Assembly: GCA_002011235.1 (NCBI GenBank) | Contig: MTMO01000034.1 | Coordinates: 84,533-148,532, forward strand | DNA from: Archaeoglobus sp. JdFR-27 | GTDB lineage: Archaea > Halobacteriota > Archaeoglobi > Archaeoglobales > Archaeoglobaceae | Direction of reading: 5' to 3' | DNA: 64,000 nt | Shown here: in pieces, positions 7,535-25,986 of the stretch | Position numbering within the stretch: the first letter of the stretch is position 1 | How the letters are laid out: each line of letters starts with the position of its first letter | Notes under the pieces: model-generated | Told to the model about the DNA's origin: nothing | The model's input: only the letters and a program-made list of their open reading frames with translations | Databases searched by the model: none | Program-made: the position numbers and the translations under genes

Positions 7535-8785
7535 CTATTCCCAACCAGCAAAAAGATCAAGCGAAACCATTTTTTGAATCTGCTTCTCAGATTTTGAGAG
7601 AATTTGCAGTCTATAATCCTCGAGTATTACGTTTTTTACTGGTTCAAGGGGTATATCAAGTCGTATCTCTCTTGTTCTTCCATATCTTCCTTTAGATATA
7701 ACAATGGAGTTCAGAATGCCGAGCATGTCGAGTTCAGATATTAGATCACTAACTCTTCTCTGAGTTAGAGCATCAATCCCAACTTTCTTGCAGAGGGATT
7801 TGTAAACGGTATAGACTTCTCCAGTCGTGAATTTCTTTCTTCCTGTCTGAGCAAGCAAAATCATTCCGAAGAGGAGAATCTTGTTCTGAGTAGGCAGGGT
7901 TCTTACGACCTCATTGACATGATCGCTCTCTATCTTCTTTACTGCCTTTTTTACATGTTCTTTGGTAACTGGACATTCTCCATCTCTTTCTGCGATTTCT
8001 CCACTAACTCTGAGCAAGTCCAAAGCTTTTCTCGCATCTCCATGCTCTTGGGCTGCAAGAGCAGCACAGAATGGAATTACCTCTTCATCAAGAACGCCAT
8101 TGTAAAAAGCAAGCTCAGCCCTTTGAGTAAGGATGTCTTGGAGCTGTTCTGCGTTGTATGGTGGGAAAATTATCTCTTCCTCACTCAGTGAGCTGATCAC
8201 CCTGGGATCGAGGAAATTCTTGAACTTCAAATCGTTTGATATCCCTATAAGACTCACTCTTGCCCTTTCGAGCTCAGAGTTTATTCTTGAAAGGCTATAA
8301 AGCACTTCATCCCCTTTTCTTACCAACTTATCGATTTCATCGAGCACGATTATGATCGTCTGAGGATGCGCATCTATGGCCATTCTAACCTCCTCATAAA
8401 CCTGATCTGTTGGCCAGCCTGTCATCGGGACATTCTTTCCAAGAACTTTGGCGAGGGTTGCAAGAACACGGTATTGGGTATCTATTATCTCGCAATTCAG
8501 GTAGTGCATGTAGCACCTGCAGTTGTTTCTTTTGCTGAACTTTTCAAGCTCTTTACCCACAAATTTTACGGTGGCAGTCTTTCCCGTCCCGGTTTTTCCG
8601 TATATGAGGATATTCGAAGGGGTTTCACCTTTTAAAGCTGAGACCAGAATTGAAGCCAAAGCTTCAACCTGTCTTTTTCTGTGCGGAAGATATTCTGGTG
8701 TATAGGAATGCCGGAGGACATCCCTGTTCCGAAAAATCTTTACCGCATTTAGTATATTATCAAAAATATTAAAATCATCGGTCAT
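7535..8785 (-). CDS. cdc6: Orc1/Cdc6 family replication initiator
   Basis: PEYLPHRKRQVEALASIL, Walker A GKTGTGKTATVKFV, Walker B IIIVLDEIDKL, C-terminal wHTH; ORF extends to 8839 but an RBS precedes MTDDF at 8785. Confidence 0.93.
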   Translation of the reverse strand: MTDDFNIFDNILNAVKIFRNRDVLRHSYTPEYLPHRKRQVEALASILVSALKGETPSNILIYGKTGTGKTATVKFVGKELEKFSKRNNCRCYMHYLNCEIIDTQYRVLATLAKVLGKNVPMTGWPTDQVYEEVRMAIDAHPQTIIIVLDEIDKLVRKGDEVLYSLSRINSELERARVSLIGISNDLKFKNFLDPRVISSLSEEEIIFPPYNAEQLQDILTQRAELAFYNGVLDEEVIPFCAALAAQEHGDARKALDLLRVSGEIAERDGECPVTKEHVKKAVKKIESDHVNEVVRTLPTQNKILLFGMILLAQTGRKKFTTGEVYTVYKSLCKKVGIDALTQRRVSDLISELDMLGILNSIVISKGRYGRTREIRLDIPLEPVKNVILEDYRLQILSKSEKQIQKMVSLDLFAGWE

Positions 8786-8952
8786 TTTACCACCTAGGAA
8801 CATTCTACCTACTTCCTTGACCTTTAAGAATTTTACCATTTCAGTTATTTGTTTATTTATGAGGAATAATTTTCTTTTAAAGAAATTTTATTTGAATAGC
8901 TTATCTTGTAAAATTTGATTAATAATTACAATTTGTGGCTTTTGATTATAAC

Positions 8953-8973
8953 ACCCCATCGTTTCCTGTGGAG
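8953..8973 (-). promoter_or_regulatory. Origin recognition box (ORB)-like element CTCCACAGGAAACGATGGGGT
   Basis: Minus-strand reading resembles the archaeal ORB core (TCCAnnGGAAAC...GGGGT); upstream of cdc6 beside AT-rich DNA. Confidence 0.6.
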
Positions 8974-9204
8974 ATACGTTATAAAAATCTGGGGCAAAGG
9001 TTGGATATCTTCTCCCTTTTTTCTGCTCCTTACCAAATCTGTTCATGAAAGTGATCCTTTAGAAATGCTTAAATTGTAAGTTGAAGCATAAGTGGAGCTG
9101 GATAATGCTATTTAGGTCTAAAAAGTATTTTTTTATGTAATACCTACGTTGAATTCTCCCTTAACCAAACGAAGACCTTATCTATCTTGTTTTATAAGAT
9201 TATT

Positions 9205-10704
9205 CTATCTTGAGGAGTCTTCAACACCGGTAACGCTCCTCATGCCGTAATCAGCTATTCTAACATCTAAAAATCTATTTTTGGGATAGTTTCCTTTGAT
9301 TGCAACAAGCAAAGGATAGGTTGCAAGCTGCCTTCCGTATGTGTAGCTCCCTTCACTGTATTCGCATCTTACATCAGTTATTTTCCTTCCTAAAGGGAGC
9401 ATTTTTCTCAACAGAACTCTATCTATGTTTTTTCTTACTTTTTCTTTGAAAATTCTGAATTCTCTTTTGTGTTTTTTCAGAAATTTGTCTCCAACTTTTT
9501 CCATTGGAGTGCCGGTAAAGATCTTCACCTGCCTGATGTTTATCCTCCTGATCCAGAGGTTTCCCTCCAAGATCCCCTCGAGAAAGGAATAGTTAACGTC
9601 GAACGTCTCTTTTGTCTCCCTCTTAAGCCCTATAACAAAGTTTAGACCTGGAAGAAAGCATGGAAGGCCATTGTAACCTATCTGCCTTCCGTAGGTGTTT
9701 ACAAGTTTTATCGCCTCCATAACCTCATCCGGGTTTGCTGCGAGGTTGTTGGTCTCGATCACTCTATCATCTGCACTTTCGAGCCCCATAGCAGCGATGT
9801 TTCCTGGAGTTTGATAAATCACGATCGTTTTTATTATTTCCTTACTCTCCTCAGGCCACGTTGCGATCGTTTTCGGATTAGCGTTATCCATGTGAAGAGT
9901 TTTAATCTTGGGGCACCTTTCCCAGATTGCTCTGTGAAAGTTTCTCATAAGGGAGGGATTTGGTTTTGGAACTTCCTTGTTGAAGTCTCCCATGTAACTG
10001 AAGAAATCCGTCTGGTTTCCGATCCTGAAGTAACGACAGCCATTTCCATATAAAGCTTCAATTTCAGCTAAAACTGCTTTTGGGTCCCTTTCTGAAGGAA
10101 AATCATGAATTCTTTCGATGCAGAAAGAACATTTCCTCCAGTAGCAGCCTTTATAAGTTTCAACTTCACAGACTATGTAGGGAAAATCAGGGTGCTGCTT
10201 TACAACTTCTGCTCCGAGCAAGCTGAATTCGTTTACAAAATTTCTGTCCGTGGTATTGTTTTTTACAACTCCATTTGCAACTTTATTGGAGTATTTGCAT
10301 AGAAAATCGAATAACTCTGATTCAAAAGGGAAATCAAAGATTTCGTAGTTCTCAAGCATTCTCCTTTCTTTTTTTGAGATCTCAAGAATTATAGGCCCTA
10401 CAAGAATCTTTCTCTCGGGCCGATCTGCGGGAAAGAGGCTAATTAGCTCTTTTAATCCTAAAGGCTTCCCACCTATATACTTCCCTGGGACGACCATTCC
10501 GGCTATTACAATAACTAAATCAAAATCGTATAAGCTTTTTTTAAATCTGTAGTTCTCCCTTAAAGCATCGATTGTTGTGTAGATGGTCTCAAATTTGAGT
10601 TTTTTAAGCATTCCATAAATGTATCGGGGATATGGTGAGATATATGGAGGGACACCTAAGCATGAAGGCTCATCGACGTATCCATCGACAATTGCTATTT
10701 TCAT
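9205..10704 (-). CDS. Archaeal radical SAM protein (COG1031-like)
   Basis: CEVETYKGCYWRKCSFCIE radical SAM cluster motif and N-terminal B12-binding-like region. Confidence 0.75.
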   Translation of the reverse strand: MKIAIVDGYVDEPSCLGVPPYISPYPRYIYGMLKKLKFETIYTTIDALRENYRFKKSLYDFDLVIVIAGMVVPGKYIGGKPLGLKELISLFPADRPERKILVGPIILEISKKERRMLENYEIFDFPFESELFDFLCKYSNKVANGVVKNNTTDRNFVNEFSLLGAEVVKQHPDFPYIVCEVETYKGCYWRKCSFCIERIHDFPSERDPKAVLAEIEALYGNGCRYFRIGNQTDFFSYMGDFNKEVPKPNPSLMRNFHRAIWERCPKIKTLHMDNANPKTIATWPEESKEIIKTIVIYQTPGNIAAMGLESADDRVIETNNLAANPDEVMEAIKLVNTYGRQIGYNGLPCFLPGLNFVIGLKRETKETFDVNYSFLEGILEGNLWIRRINIRQVKIFTGTPMEKVGDKFLKKHKREFRIFKEKVRKNIDRVLLRKMLPLGRKITDVRCEYSEGSYTYGRQLATYPLLVAIKGNYPKNRFLDVRIADYGMRSVTGVEDSSR

Positions 10705-20752: not shown

Positions 20753-22369
20753 TCAATCTCTTACTTCAATCCCTTTTTTCCTTAGATAATCTTTAACCTC
20801 AGTGATTGATACCTCCTTTCGATGGAAGATGCCGGCTGCTAAAGCAGCCTCAACGTCTGTCTTGCTGAAAACCTCGTAAAAATGCTCGACTTTCCCAGCC
20901 CCACTTGATGCAATAACCGGTATGGAAACCCCACTTTTGACATGGTTAATTAACTCTAAATCATATCCAAGCTTCGTTCCATCCCTGTCAATGCAGTTGA
21001 GCAGGATCTCTCCTGCACCAAGCTTCTCGCAAATCTTTGCGAGCTGCAAAGCATCGATGTCTCTTGCTTCTCTCCCCCCCTTCACCGTGCACTGGTACCA
21101 GCAGTACTCTTCTCCATTGGGGCCAGGGATTTCAGTCTTGATAACATTGTGTTTGGTGTCGGTAGGAGATTCGACGTAAACCCTCTTTGGATCGATCGAA
21201 ACGACAACTGCTTGGCTGCCATAAACCCTTGAGATCTGCTCTATTGAACTCTCACCCGTTGGGCCGTGCTTTAGGTATTCTTCAGCTGTATAGACAGCAT
21301 CGCTGCCTATAGACACTTTATCCGCCCCAGATCTGAAGTATTCGGACGCGACATCTAAAGCAGAGTAATACGTTCCATCCGAATCCGTGTATTCCTGAAT
21401 CCCACCACCAATTGTAAGCGGTACAAAGACATTTTCAGATGTAAGTCTTAAAACCTCTAACATAGGCTGATCTTTGAGCGGGAAATCTCGGAATCCGGTT
21501 ATATTCAGGAATACAATCTCATCTGCCCCCTCCTCAAAATACCTTCTCGCAAGCTCCACTGGCTTGCCGAGGTTTCTAACTCTGCCTTTCTCCCTGACGT
21601 CGTATTTATCTCCTTTTGTAACGACTAAATCTCCCTCATCGTTTGTCCTCACATCAAGACATGCTACGATCCTTTTTGCCAGCTTGGTTTTGTCTGATTT
21701 CTCGTTTTTACTTTTATTTGATACTGAGCTGTATGAATGTAAATCCAAAGATTCTGACTCCAGAAAATTCTTTAAAATCCTCAATCCGGCCTCTCCACTC
21801 TTCTCTGGATGGAATTGCACGGCTATAACATTGCCCTTCTGAACGGCGCTTATGAACTCTCCACCGTAGTCTGTTGTGGAGAGAATCCAGTCAGAATTCT
21901 CCTTACTTGGCACTGCCCTATAGGAGTGCACGAAGTAAAGCTTTTCTCCCTTATATCTTGAAAATAAACTTGAACTCTTCTCGATTTTTATTCCATTCCA
22001 GCCTATGTGTGGAACCGAGACTTTCTTGCTGTCGAACTTTTTTATCTGCCCCTTTATCACACCTAACCCAGGAACATCGGGAGCCTCTTCGCTTCCCTCG
22101 AAAAGGGTCTGTAAGCCTAAGCAAATTCCTAAAAATGGTCTGTTCGATTTTATATATTCCTTTAGAGCCTCAACGTATCCATACTCTTCTAACCTCTCCA
22201 TTGCATTCCCGAAACTTCCAACACCTGGAAAAATGAGCTTTTTGGCATTTAAAATGTCTTTTGGCCCGGATACATCTTCAACGGAGTAACCAAGTTTCTT
22301 TATCGCGTTTCTTATACTTCTTACATTCCCCGCTCCATAATCTACCAAGGTTACCATCTGATTTTCCAC
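20753..22369 (-). CDS. hisHF: Imidazole glycerol phosphate synthase, HisH-HisF fusion
   Basis: N-terminal HisH amidotransferase ([23 protein letters not shown]) fused in frame to HisF ([19 protein letters not shown]). Confidence 0.95.
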
Positions 22370-22544
22370 CTTTTGCTTTTCTGGAAGTGAATATTTAAGA
22401 TTTTGTGTGGTTTCAGGCTAAATATAATTGACGTAAATACGTAAATAGAATTTTCCACGATTTGCCAGCCCTCTGATTCTATTCCAAAATTTAAAATTTC
22501 TGATTTGTACTAATAATTTCGGATTAATTCCACTCTCTCTAATC

Positions 22545-23204
22545 TTAAAAAATTCGAAGTTCTAAAGATGGATTTATAACTCCTTCAAGCATTTTTACAT
22601 GTTTTTTACATAATCCTTTCACTTGGTTAATCTCTTCAGTCGTATGGCAATTGTAGAGTATACATGTTTTCTCACTACAAAATATTTCTTCGTACTCAAA
22701 ATAGGCATAAAACTGCAGAATGAGCATTCTTAGCACTTTACGAACATCAATATCGATTTTCTCAGTAAAGCCCAGTGAGGATTTTATGTAGTATTCAGGA
22801 GGCTTTGCCGGAGCATAAAGTATGCCTTTAAGCGAGATTACCGCAGCAGCACTCATCACAATCATTCTAAGATGGTATCTCATATCATCTCCAGGTGTAG
22901 CTATAAGTCTATTTGTTATTAGGACTGCTGGCTTAGAAATGTCAATGCTTTGGGAGAAGTATTTCAGCAATTCTACACCATCGTAAATAACTCCCTGTAT
23001 AAGATCCCTCTTCTCGTTCTCGATCTCTAATGGGAGAGGCTCGTAAAATACCCTCTCGCTGGGATTTCTTACCCTTATATATGCAAGAAAATAGGGATCT
23101 CTGAACCTATATTTTTTAAACTCAACAGTAAAGTTGAAGAGAGCTCTTATCTCGTCGAAAAATGAAAATGAATCCCAAAGATTTTCTTCGATATATATCT
23201 TCAT
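22545..23204 (-). CDS. Conserved archaeal hypothetical protein
   Basis: 219 aa uninterrupted ORF next to thi4. Confidence 0.6.
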   Translation of the reverse strand: MKIYIEENLWDSFSFFDEIRALFNFTVEFKKYRFRDPYFLAYIRVRNPSERVFYEPLPLEIENEKRDLIQGVIYDGVELLKYFSQSIDISKPAVLITNRLIATPGDDMRYHLRMIVMSAAAVISLKGILYAPAKPPEYYIKSSLGFTEKIDIDVRKVLRMLILQFYAYFEYEEIFCSEKTCILYNCHTTEEINQVKGLCKKHVKMLEGVINPSLELRIF

Positions 23205-23211
23205 ATATATA

Positions 23212-24003
23212 TTACTCGAACCCCTTCAGCTTTTCAAGGGCAACTTCAGCAGCTCTTTTTCCACTTAGAAGCATCCCTCCAAAAGTTGGTCCCATTCTTG
23301 GGAGCCCGAAGACTGTAGTCACTGCCATTCCAGTAACTATAAGACCAGAGAAAACTTCTCCAGTATGGTTCACGACGGCATCTTCGCTCTCTTCAACCCA
23401 CATTGAACCGTACCCTCTTGTTTTAAGAAGACCCCTTTCCTCAAGCTTTTTAGCAACAAACGCATCGTGGCCTGTTGCATCTATGATAAGCTTGGATTCG
23501 AGAGCTATTGGATCAACGCAAGTTATTTGCCTCGGTAAAGCTTGTACTGGTGTCCAGTTTATTACTACTCCTGAAACCCTCCTCTCCTTTATTATCAAAT
23601 CTTCAAAGGTGGTCATGTTAAGAAACTTCGCACCAGCTTCGCAAGCTGCAGCTATAAGCTTTGAACACGCATGTGGGCCATCTGTAACGTATAGTCCTTT
23701 AGTGTATTCTTGGTAAGGAATGAGAAGTTCATCTAGGACTTTTTCTGCTGGGGCTCTGACAGTTATCTTGTTCATCAGATATCCACCAATCCAGAAACCC
23801 CCACCCAAATAGTTGTTCCTTTCTATTACGAGGACTTTTTTACCGACTTTTGCAAGTTCTCTTGCAGCCATCAGTCCACTGGGCCCACCTCCAACAACAA
23901 TTACATCAGAGTCTGTGTATTCTATAAGCATGCTGTGAAAACTCTTTACAATGGCTGAAGTTACGTCTTTTTCGGTTGTTTTTGCAAAAATTTCCCCTTC
24001 CAT
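23212..24003 (-). CDS. thi4: Thiamine thiazole synthase, Thi4 family
   Basis: [67 protein letters not shown]. Confidence 0.93.
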
Positions 24004-24103
24004 TCTACCACCAATTTAACACTGTTAATCCGATTATTTAAGTCTTACGCGTAGTCAATATACCATAATCTTTAAGTTCGGGGAGTTACTTGTTTTATTC
24101 CAA

Positions 24104-25438
24104 ATGAATTATTTAAAAAATTGGATCACGATCATTTTAATCGTTTTAATTCTTCTCAGTTTTGGGTGTTCTCAAAAACTAACAGCAGAAAAAGTCGTTG
24201 AAAAGATGAGAGAGAAGTATGGAAGCATAAACAGTTATAGAGCTGAGATTCATCAAAAAGAGGTTGTTAATGGGAAAGTTAGAGAATATAATTCCGTTGT
24301 AGGTTTCAAAAAACCAAATAAATTTTTTGAGAGTTCAGCAAACTTCAAATCTGCCTACAATGGCAGTTATTTCTGGAGCTATGATAAAATAAAAAATGAA
24401 ATGAGGGTAGTAAAAATTCAAAGTCAGGAGTCTCCGGATATTTTTGGTTATGTATTGAGAGAACTTGGAAAGTATGAAATCGATCTGGTTGGAAAAGAGA
24501 AGATTGATGGAAAAGACTGCTATGTTCTAGAATTAACCCCAAAAAAGAAGGATTTCTATGAATTCCAGAAGATCTGGATCGTGAAGGATGAGTGGTATCC
24601 TATAAAACTGCAAATGAAGGTGGAATTCAAATTTTTTAAGGAATTTGAGAAAGAACTAGAACTTCCAAATGTATCAATCTCGATAATAGAGCTTAAAAAT
24701 GTAATGTTCGATGTAGAGATAGATGATGGAGAATTTCAGCTTGAAAATGCAGTAAAGCAAGTATATGGAGATGAGATTGTCAGTATAGCTTTAAGCGATG
24801 AAAGAGTGAGGAAAGAAATAGAGAATAGAGAATGTAAAATTCTAAAAGTGAATAAAGTAGATGGATTGGCTTATGTCGAAATATCAGTCGGAAAGCCAGA
24901 TAAACCCGGGATACTTCTTCATTTGACTGTAGATTCTGAAAAGAGAGAGGTTATATACTTTAGAAAAGATTTTAGAGAACCCTCGATAAGTGATTCTCTG
25001 ATCAACAGCATCCTTCAGATTGATGAAGTAAAGCAAAAAATTGGAGAGAAATACAGTGGTATCAATTACTACGTAAATAAAACGGTTCTCGAAATATACG
25101 TCCTCACTCCGTCTGGGGCTTACAAAATATATTATGACTTGCTGAGCGATGGGGTGATTCGAATTGAGAGTATACCTGGTTGGGGGAAGTCATTAAAGGA
25201 AGAAACGATGACGGAAGAGGAGAAACAAAAGTACCTGGCGATGGCTTTGAACGATTCAAAGGTTCGAGAGTTATTGAAGAATGAAAAATTCAGTGCAAAT
25301 TTCACCAAGTACGTTCTGTACCAAAATGGACAAAAAATAAGGGATCCGGATCATGTGATAATAATTTTAAAAGTTGATGGAGAGAGTTACGAAATTGTTC
25401 TGTCTGGGGAGAGAGTTTTATCAGTGGAAAAAGTTTGA
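24104..25438 (+). CDS. Lipoprotein with LolA-like domain
   Basis: Lipobox LLSFGCSQ; KMREKYGSINSYRAEIHQKEV...GKDCYVLELTPK...IWIVKDEWYPIKLQM typical of archaeal LolA-like proteins. Confidence 0.72.
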   Translation: MNYLKNWITIILIVLILLSFGCSQKLTAEKVVEKMREKYGSINSYRAEIHQKEVVNGKVREYNSVVGFKKPNKFFESSANFKSAYNGSYFWSYDKIKNEMRVVKIQSQESPDIFGYVLRELGKYEIDLVGKEKIDGKDCYVLELTPKKKDFYEFQKIWIVKDEWYPIKLQMKVEFKFFKEFEKELELPNVSISIIELKNVMFDVEIDDGEFQLENAVKQVYGDEIVSIALSDERVRKEIENRECKILKVNKVDGLAYVEISVGKPDKPGILLHLTVDSEKREVIYFRKDFREPSISDSLINSILQIDEVKQKIGEKYSGINYYVNKTVLEIYVLTPSGAYKIYYDLLSDGVIRIESIPGWGKSLKEETMTEEEKQKYLAMALNDSKVRELLKNEKFSANFTKYVLYQNGQKIRDPDHVIIILKVDGESYEIVLSGERVLSVEKV

Positions 25439-25488
25439 ATTGGATTGTGGAAACTATAAAAATAAAAAATAAAAACTATTCAAATCTC

Positions 25489-25986
25489 CTAGAGCCGATG
25501 ACCCTCAATCTCAAGAAGAAACTTCTTTATTCTAATTCCTGATTCCTTACCACCCATGTAGCCCCCTAGATCTCCCACTCCAACAACCCTGTGACATGGA
25601 ATAATCACGGGAACCGGATTTCTTGCCAAAACCCCTCCAACAGCTCTGTACGCCTTTGTGCCCAGTCTTTCTGCCACCTCTTTGTATGTTTTTGTTTCTC
25701 CATAGGGAATTTTTGAAACCTCAAATAGAACTCTTGCAGTGAATTCTGGTACAGAAAGTCTTACGGCGTAATTGAGGCCTATTTTCTTGCCTGAAAAATA
25801 TGTGTAGAGGTCTTCTTTTAGCTTTCTCGCAACTGGACTTCTTATACTCTCTCTTATACCCTCTTTTGTACTCTCCCCTAACTCCTTACTGGAAAATCCA
25901 CATTTTACAATAACCCCATTTTTCAAATGAGCAAAGAAAAAGTGTGGAGGATCCATGCCTCTAAGATCGATCACGACAGATTCCAT
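25489..25986 (-). CDS. ogt: Methylated-DNA--protein-cysteine methyltransferase
   Basis: IPYGETKTYKEVAERLGTKAYRAVGGVLARNPVPVIIPCHRVVG. Confidence 0.95.
   Translation of the reverse strand: MESVVIDLRGMDPPHFFFAHLKNGVIVKCGFSSKELGESTKEGIRESIRSPVARKLKEDLYTYFSGKKIGLNYAVRLSVPEFTARVLFEVSKIPYGETKTYKEVAERLGTKAYRAVGGVLARNPVPVIIPCHRVVGVGDLGGYMGGKESGIRIKKFLLEIEGHRL

Follow-up and report, generated by a model that had tools for sequence, protein, structure and literature searches.

A single origin recognition box before cdc6 in an Archaeoglobus genome: probably an Orc1 operator, with the main replication origin elsewhere

A replication initiator gene, AT-rich DNA and an origin recognition box (ORB) lie side by side in a 64,000-nucleotide stretch of the Archaeoglobus sp. 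JdFR-27 genome (the window, on contig C16), where a first-pass annotation proposed a replication origin at 8840-9204. Do these elements make up an origin, or does the ORB serve the gene that it precedes? The best explanation, to which we give a probability of about 0.7, is that the ORB in the cdc6 promoter would be an operator through which Orc1 represses its own gene, and that the main origin lies elsewhere, at an inverted ORB cluster.

The gene (7535-8839, minus strand) had been named orc1/cdc6, and NF001625 bears this out with 638 bits, the cut-off being 501. Translation probably begins at 8785 rather than at the ORF start, 8839, because relatives carry stops between the first ATG and 8785. 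The closest structural relatives of the product are Cdc6 homolog 1 (2qby_A) and 2v1u_A; both are structures of an initiator on ORB DNA. Alignments of the product show that the wing motif GRYG(K/R)T is retained. Judged by these relatives, the window cdc6 encodes an initiator of the Orc1-1 type, the type that binds ORBs. Two further, more distant cdc6 paralogues are carried on contig C14. Upstream of cdc6 lies a radical SAM gene (9205-10704, minus strand; PF04055), and this neighbourhood is maintained in congeners and in genome G019 (synteny). Since the two genes run in the same direction, cdc6 is the only gene that a promoter between them would serve.

The ORB, CTCCACAGGAAACGATGGGGT, lies exactly where it was first placed, at 8953-8973 on the minus strand, 134 bp from the start of the cdc6 ORF and 188 bp from the probable start. 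It has both the consensus and the G-string of an ORB element. The common ORB motif of Ori-Finder 2 is TCCA[CG]T[TG]GAAA[TC][GA]AAGGGGT (PMC4164010), and the site agrees with it except at two positions. With a 24-position scoring matrix trained only on origin-locus ORBs of other genomes, the site reached 32.2 bits, against a maximum of 15.1 in six 2-Mb simulated strands. At three or fewer mismatches the ORB pattern has one match in the window, where 0.04 are expected, and this is also the sole match in the 2.36-Mb assembly. The earlier remark that only one clear ORB occurs here holds as well: the runner-up in the matrix scan of the window has just 11 bits, which is chance level. The AT-rich stretch described at about 8840-8940 measures 81% AT, and at least 80% AT is reached by just 0.3% of 100-bp windows.

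Genera g1, g4, g5, g8 and g12 supplied 16 loci, and in all of them we found a single ORB upstream of cdc6, its G-string being weakened in three g4 genomes. The element is absent from eight of the genera examined, and two changes suffice to explain its presence and absence on a tree of 30 cdc6 protein sequences. In the window, 7 bp separate the 5′ end of the ORB from an upstream TATA-like box (ATTTTTATA; 8980-8988, minus strand), the probable core promoter of cdc6. Counting the variants TTTTTAT, TTTATAT, TTTTATA and TTTATCT, which were chosen after viewing the alignment, a TATA-like box stands exactly 7 bp before the ORB in 15 of the 16 cdc6 loci, against 1 of 75 control ORBs with such a box at 4-12 bp (Fisher p ~5e-15, for loci that are related by descent rather than independent and that cover five genera). 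The controls were drawn from origin-region loci, mostly origin clusters, and a few of the lowest-scoring ones sit within outgroup genes. By inspection, TTTTTAT alone is present in 13 of the 16 cdc6 loci and in none of the 75 controls. At this fixed distance the ORB would lie in the cdc6 core promoter, the transcription start itself being a prediction, and the solitary ORB before cdc6 reads as a putative promoter element.

Other parts of the leader are conserved too. Directly after the ORB comes the string GTTATAATC (8944-8952, minus strand), which is TATA-like and partly conserved in the alignment. Leader block 2 (AAATAAAATTTCTTTAAAAGAAAA; 8870-8893, minus strand) is conserved in the 16-locus alignment and near-palindromic in its own genus; it is possibly a second promoter element. 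Leader block 3 (ATGGTAAAATTCTTAAAG; 8822-8839, minus strand) is the best conserved block of that alignment. As ATGGTAAARYTCTTAAAG, this block is conserved before cdc6 in six genera, and it behaves as conserved DNA or RNA, not as protein, given the stops after it in relatives. We considered ATGGTAAARYTCTTAAAG as an origin element and rejected it: away from cdc6 leaders it matches no more often than the reversed-pattern control, and genus g11, which has no ORB before cdc6, nevertheless carries the block there. It belongs, then, to the cdc6 leader and not to origins.

A cdc6-linked origin would be expected to combine adjacency to orc1/cdc6 with two or more inverted ORBs flanking an AT-rich element and a strand-skew switch at the site. 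The adjacency and the AT-rich element (8840-8940) are found in the window; inverted ORBs flanking that element are not, the window having one ORB. As the raw GC skew of the window tracks gene direction, we used instead the skew at third codon positions, corrected for gene strand, over 400-kb stretches. By this measure, a negative-to-positive switch at cdc6, on which the proposed origin was to be judged, is seen neither on C16 nor in G013 or G019; in the latter two genomes the switch lies at or near the inverted ORB clusters. On C16, cdc6 is flanked by positive skew to either side, and a switch lies about 50 kb away. In the complete congener G013, the best change points are at 360,241 (keto, z 12.4) and 360,817 (GC, z 8.8), the z values treating sites as independent and serving for comparison only. 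They fall within 1.5 kb of 361,533, the ORB(-) of an inverted pair, and over about 180 kb each way negative values prevail on the left and positive ones on the right. The cdc6 ORB of G013 has z values of 3.7-4.7, and the next 20 kb are negative, the wrong direction for an origin. In G019, the switch at 181-183 kb lies 10-20 kb from the ORB cluster at 161-174 kb, and cdc6 at 336.7 kb gives z values of 0.3 and 2.9.

We also noted skew switches of the origin type at a distance of 25-55 kb from cdc6, at ~39-44 kb on C16 and ~1.325-1.355 Mb in G013, with no ORBs there. These raised the possibility of a conserved second origin near cdc6, which we rejected, as gene order at these switches is not shared between C16 and G013; they are probably rearrangement edges.

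Besides the cdc6 site, an ORB scan of 55 family genomes yielded inverted ORB clusters far from cdc6. In the JdFR-27 genome, contig C30 has ORBs at 21,054(-) with 35.3 bits, 21,483(-) with 18.6 bits and 25,524(+) with 31.3 bits. The search for further ORBs that the first-pass annotation had suggested therefore gave nothing above chance in the window and an inverted cluster on C30. This cluster, at ~21.05-25.55 kb (21054-25547) around UPF0147-UPF0148-glyS, is probably the main chromosomal origin; the skew of C30 is uninformative at its length of 39 kb. Inverted brackets far from cdc6 occur in all 23 family genomes in which a single contig holds the two arms, this genome included. In every one the innermost arms are oriented (-,+), with G-strings outward and 1.3-30.6 kb between arms, and in G019 an extra ORB of opposite orientation lies outside the bracket pair. 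The UPF0148 gene (PF06677) usually sits in the space between the arms or immediately next to them, and UPF0147 and glyS are close by; UPF0148 is located elsewhere in G013 and in the genus of A. fulgidus. At zero mismatches, TCCANNGGAAANNAAGGGG is present in 50 of 59 genomes of the class, and its reversed control in none of the 59.

According to a published account, the origin of A. fulgidus was mapped by experiment at such ORBs, far from cdc6, and that of A. profundus was predicted at such ORBs, likewise far from cdc6 (PMC3035285). In A. profundus (G014), we recovered the inverted TTTCCACAGGAAATAAAGGGGT pair, ~1,264 bp apart, as given in that account (PMC3035285). In A. fulgidus (G001), the ORBs lie at 65.6% of the 2,178,400 bases. 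Its corrected skew has a weak switch at 1,476 kb (z 5.7, with z 5.3 at the ORB at 1,430,023), in agreement with a published remark that A. fulgidus has no apparent GC skew (PMC5732400). Neither species has an ORB directly before cdc6.

Several observations on these clusters are recorded here in their own right. On contig C1 of G001, the ORBs of the mapped A. fulgidus origin (1430020-1430268) have a third ORB as inverted partner 30.6 kb off, at 1,399,412; this partner does not figure in the passage of PMC3035285 that describes the origin. In G002 (C2:76804-88372), both bracket arms are duplicated at 226-bp spacing with near-identical flanks, in the manner of a long inverted repeat. In G013 (1096501), G026 (482288) and G029 (C6), an ORB stands alone, away from cdc6 and the inverted cluster alike, beside the 3′ end of a gene for an Lrp-type regulator. 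ORBs are also present at 585509-591724 in G026, tentatively Geoglobus ahangari, whose genome paper reported a failure to identify any specific ORB (PMC4600277).

The outgroup consists of two genomes, G057 and G058, from a different family of the class. In both, the order is glyS - Hef-like helicase - UPF0148 - UPF0147 - ORB(-) - ~155 bp of AT-rich DNA - ORB(+) - cdc6 - signal peptidase - DNA polymerase D subunits, where Hef, signal peptidase and PolD are presumed identities, read off the translated sequences. The outgroup ORB(+) starts ~110 bp before cdc6 and is oriented like the window ORB. Because the outgroup family retains this compact ORB-AT-ORB-cdc6 origin, the window site looks like its cdc6-proximal half, and the window ORB probably descends from that half of an ancestral origin linked to cdc6, having been retained for regulation when the gene and the origin came apart. 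In the simplest reading, Archaeoglobaceae detached cdc6, along with the ORB next to it, from the remainder of the origin, after which the cdc6 ORB was lost in some lineages; independent gain of the cdc6 ORB is possible. Both outgroup genomes also have 20-bit ORB-like sites inside the Hef-like and PolD-like genes that flank the origin (142096 and 150057 in G057; C117:5847 and 13768 in G058).

Could the window site nevertheless be an active, perhaps secondary origin, where Orc1 on its one ORB would open the adjoining AT-rich DNA for MCM loading? An ORB, an 81% AT stretch and cdc6 are all there, and origin-type skew switches lie 25-55 kb away in G013 and on C16. However, Sulfolobus oriC1 needs each of its two inverted ORBs (PMC12141716), and the window has one. 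No skew switch occurs at cdc6 itself on three contigs, the nearby switches are non-syntenic between C16 and G013, as would be the case for rearrangement edges, and A. fulgidus, with one mapped origin, lacks an ORB before cdc6. We therefore regard an active origin here, main or secondary, as unlikely. Of the origin claim for 8840-9204 as first made, the ORB and the link to Orc1/Cdc6 stand; the assignment as a replication origin is unlikely in view of the single ORB, the lack of a skew switch, the C30 cluster and the fixed TATA spacing.

That spacing also bears on two readings in which the site is neither origin nor operator. The ORB might be a titration or storage site that draws Orc1 off the origin, as datA does for DnaA, and hardly affect the transcription of cdc6 directly. 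Several genomes do have solitary ORBs away from cdc6, and in Haloarcula an ORB-rich region negatively regulates oriC2 (PMC5333045), but one site makes a poor sink and the fixed distance to the TATA-like box points to a promoter, so that titration appears quite improbable. We find it harder still to credit that the ORB is a functionless relic of the ancestral cdc6-linked origin. The outgroup ORB(+), at a similar distance before cdc6 and in the same orientation, and the eight genera without a cdc6 ORB would fit such a relic; against it, the ORB and its TATA spacing were kept across five genera while the surrounding DNA diverged, which argues for selection.

The preferred reading, an Orc1 operator for autorepression, follows the layout of the putative promoter, in which exactly 7 bp lie between a TATA-like box and the ORB. 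The usual archaeal spacing from TATA box to start would put the cdc6 transcription start inside the ORB. The Orc1 product would bind the ORB over this predicted start, so bound Orc1 should block initiation, by hindering either the basal transcription factors or the polymerase. If Orc1 blocks its own promoter in this way, the initiator would limit its own supply. Orc1 binding at 8953-8973, repression and the historical separation are what we infer to be most likely, rather than events observed here. Our literature search found no report of archaeal ORB-mediated cdc6 autoregulation.

Taken jointly with the history of the locus, the proposal is that an ancestral cdc6-linked origin split in Archaeoglobaceae: the origin would have stayed at the inverted bracket that surrounds housekeeping genes, with 1.3-30.6 kb between its arms, and the cdc6 ORB of five genera would have become a TATA - 7 bp - ORB autorepression switch that ties initiator supply to the Orc1 level. 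To this whole account we give about even odds.

ORBs, and origins far from cdc6 in two Archaeoglobus species, are already published. In our literature search we did not find the TATA-7-ORB module, the family-wide outward bracket or the compact outgroup origin described. The usual search for archaeal origins beside cdc6 would mislocate the origin here. The inverted ORBs of C30 offer a specific, testable alternative, and the operator reading would explain why cdc6 still bears an ORB. The compact outgroup origin and the separated gene and origin of Archaeoglobaceae form a before/after pair for studying how origin and initiator separate.

Among known systems, the window site shares with cdc6-linked oriC1 (Pyrococcus oriC, Sulfolobus oriC1 and haloarchaeal oriC1) the ORB sequence, the AT-rich DNA and the place directly upstream of an Orc1-1-type cdc6. 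Unlike them, it has one ORB rather than an inverted set, no skew switch, and an ORB tied to a TATA-like box. The origins of A. fulgidus and A. profundus, as described in PMC3035285, belong to the same family, and their counterpart in this genome is the inverted cluster on C30, whereas the window site is a cdc6-side ORB, an element missing in both species. A functional likeness may be seen in DnaA autoregulation, in which an initiator-binding box lies within the promoter of the initiator gene and negative feedback is expected (cited in PMC3936714). The DnaA system differs in its unrelated protein and box, and transcription on the cdc6 side is of the TBP/TFB type; autoregulation at cdc6, a proposal here, would be an archaeal counterpart of it.
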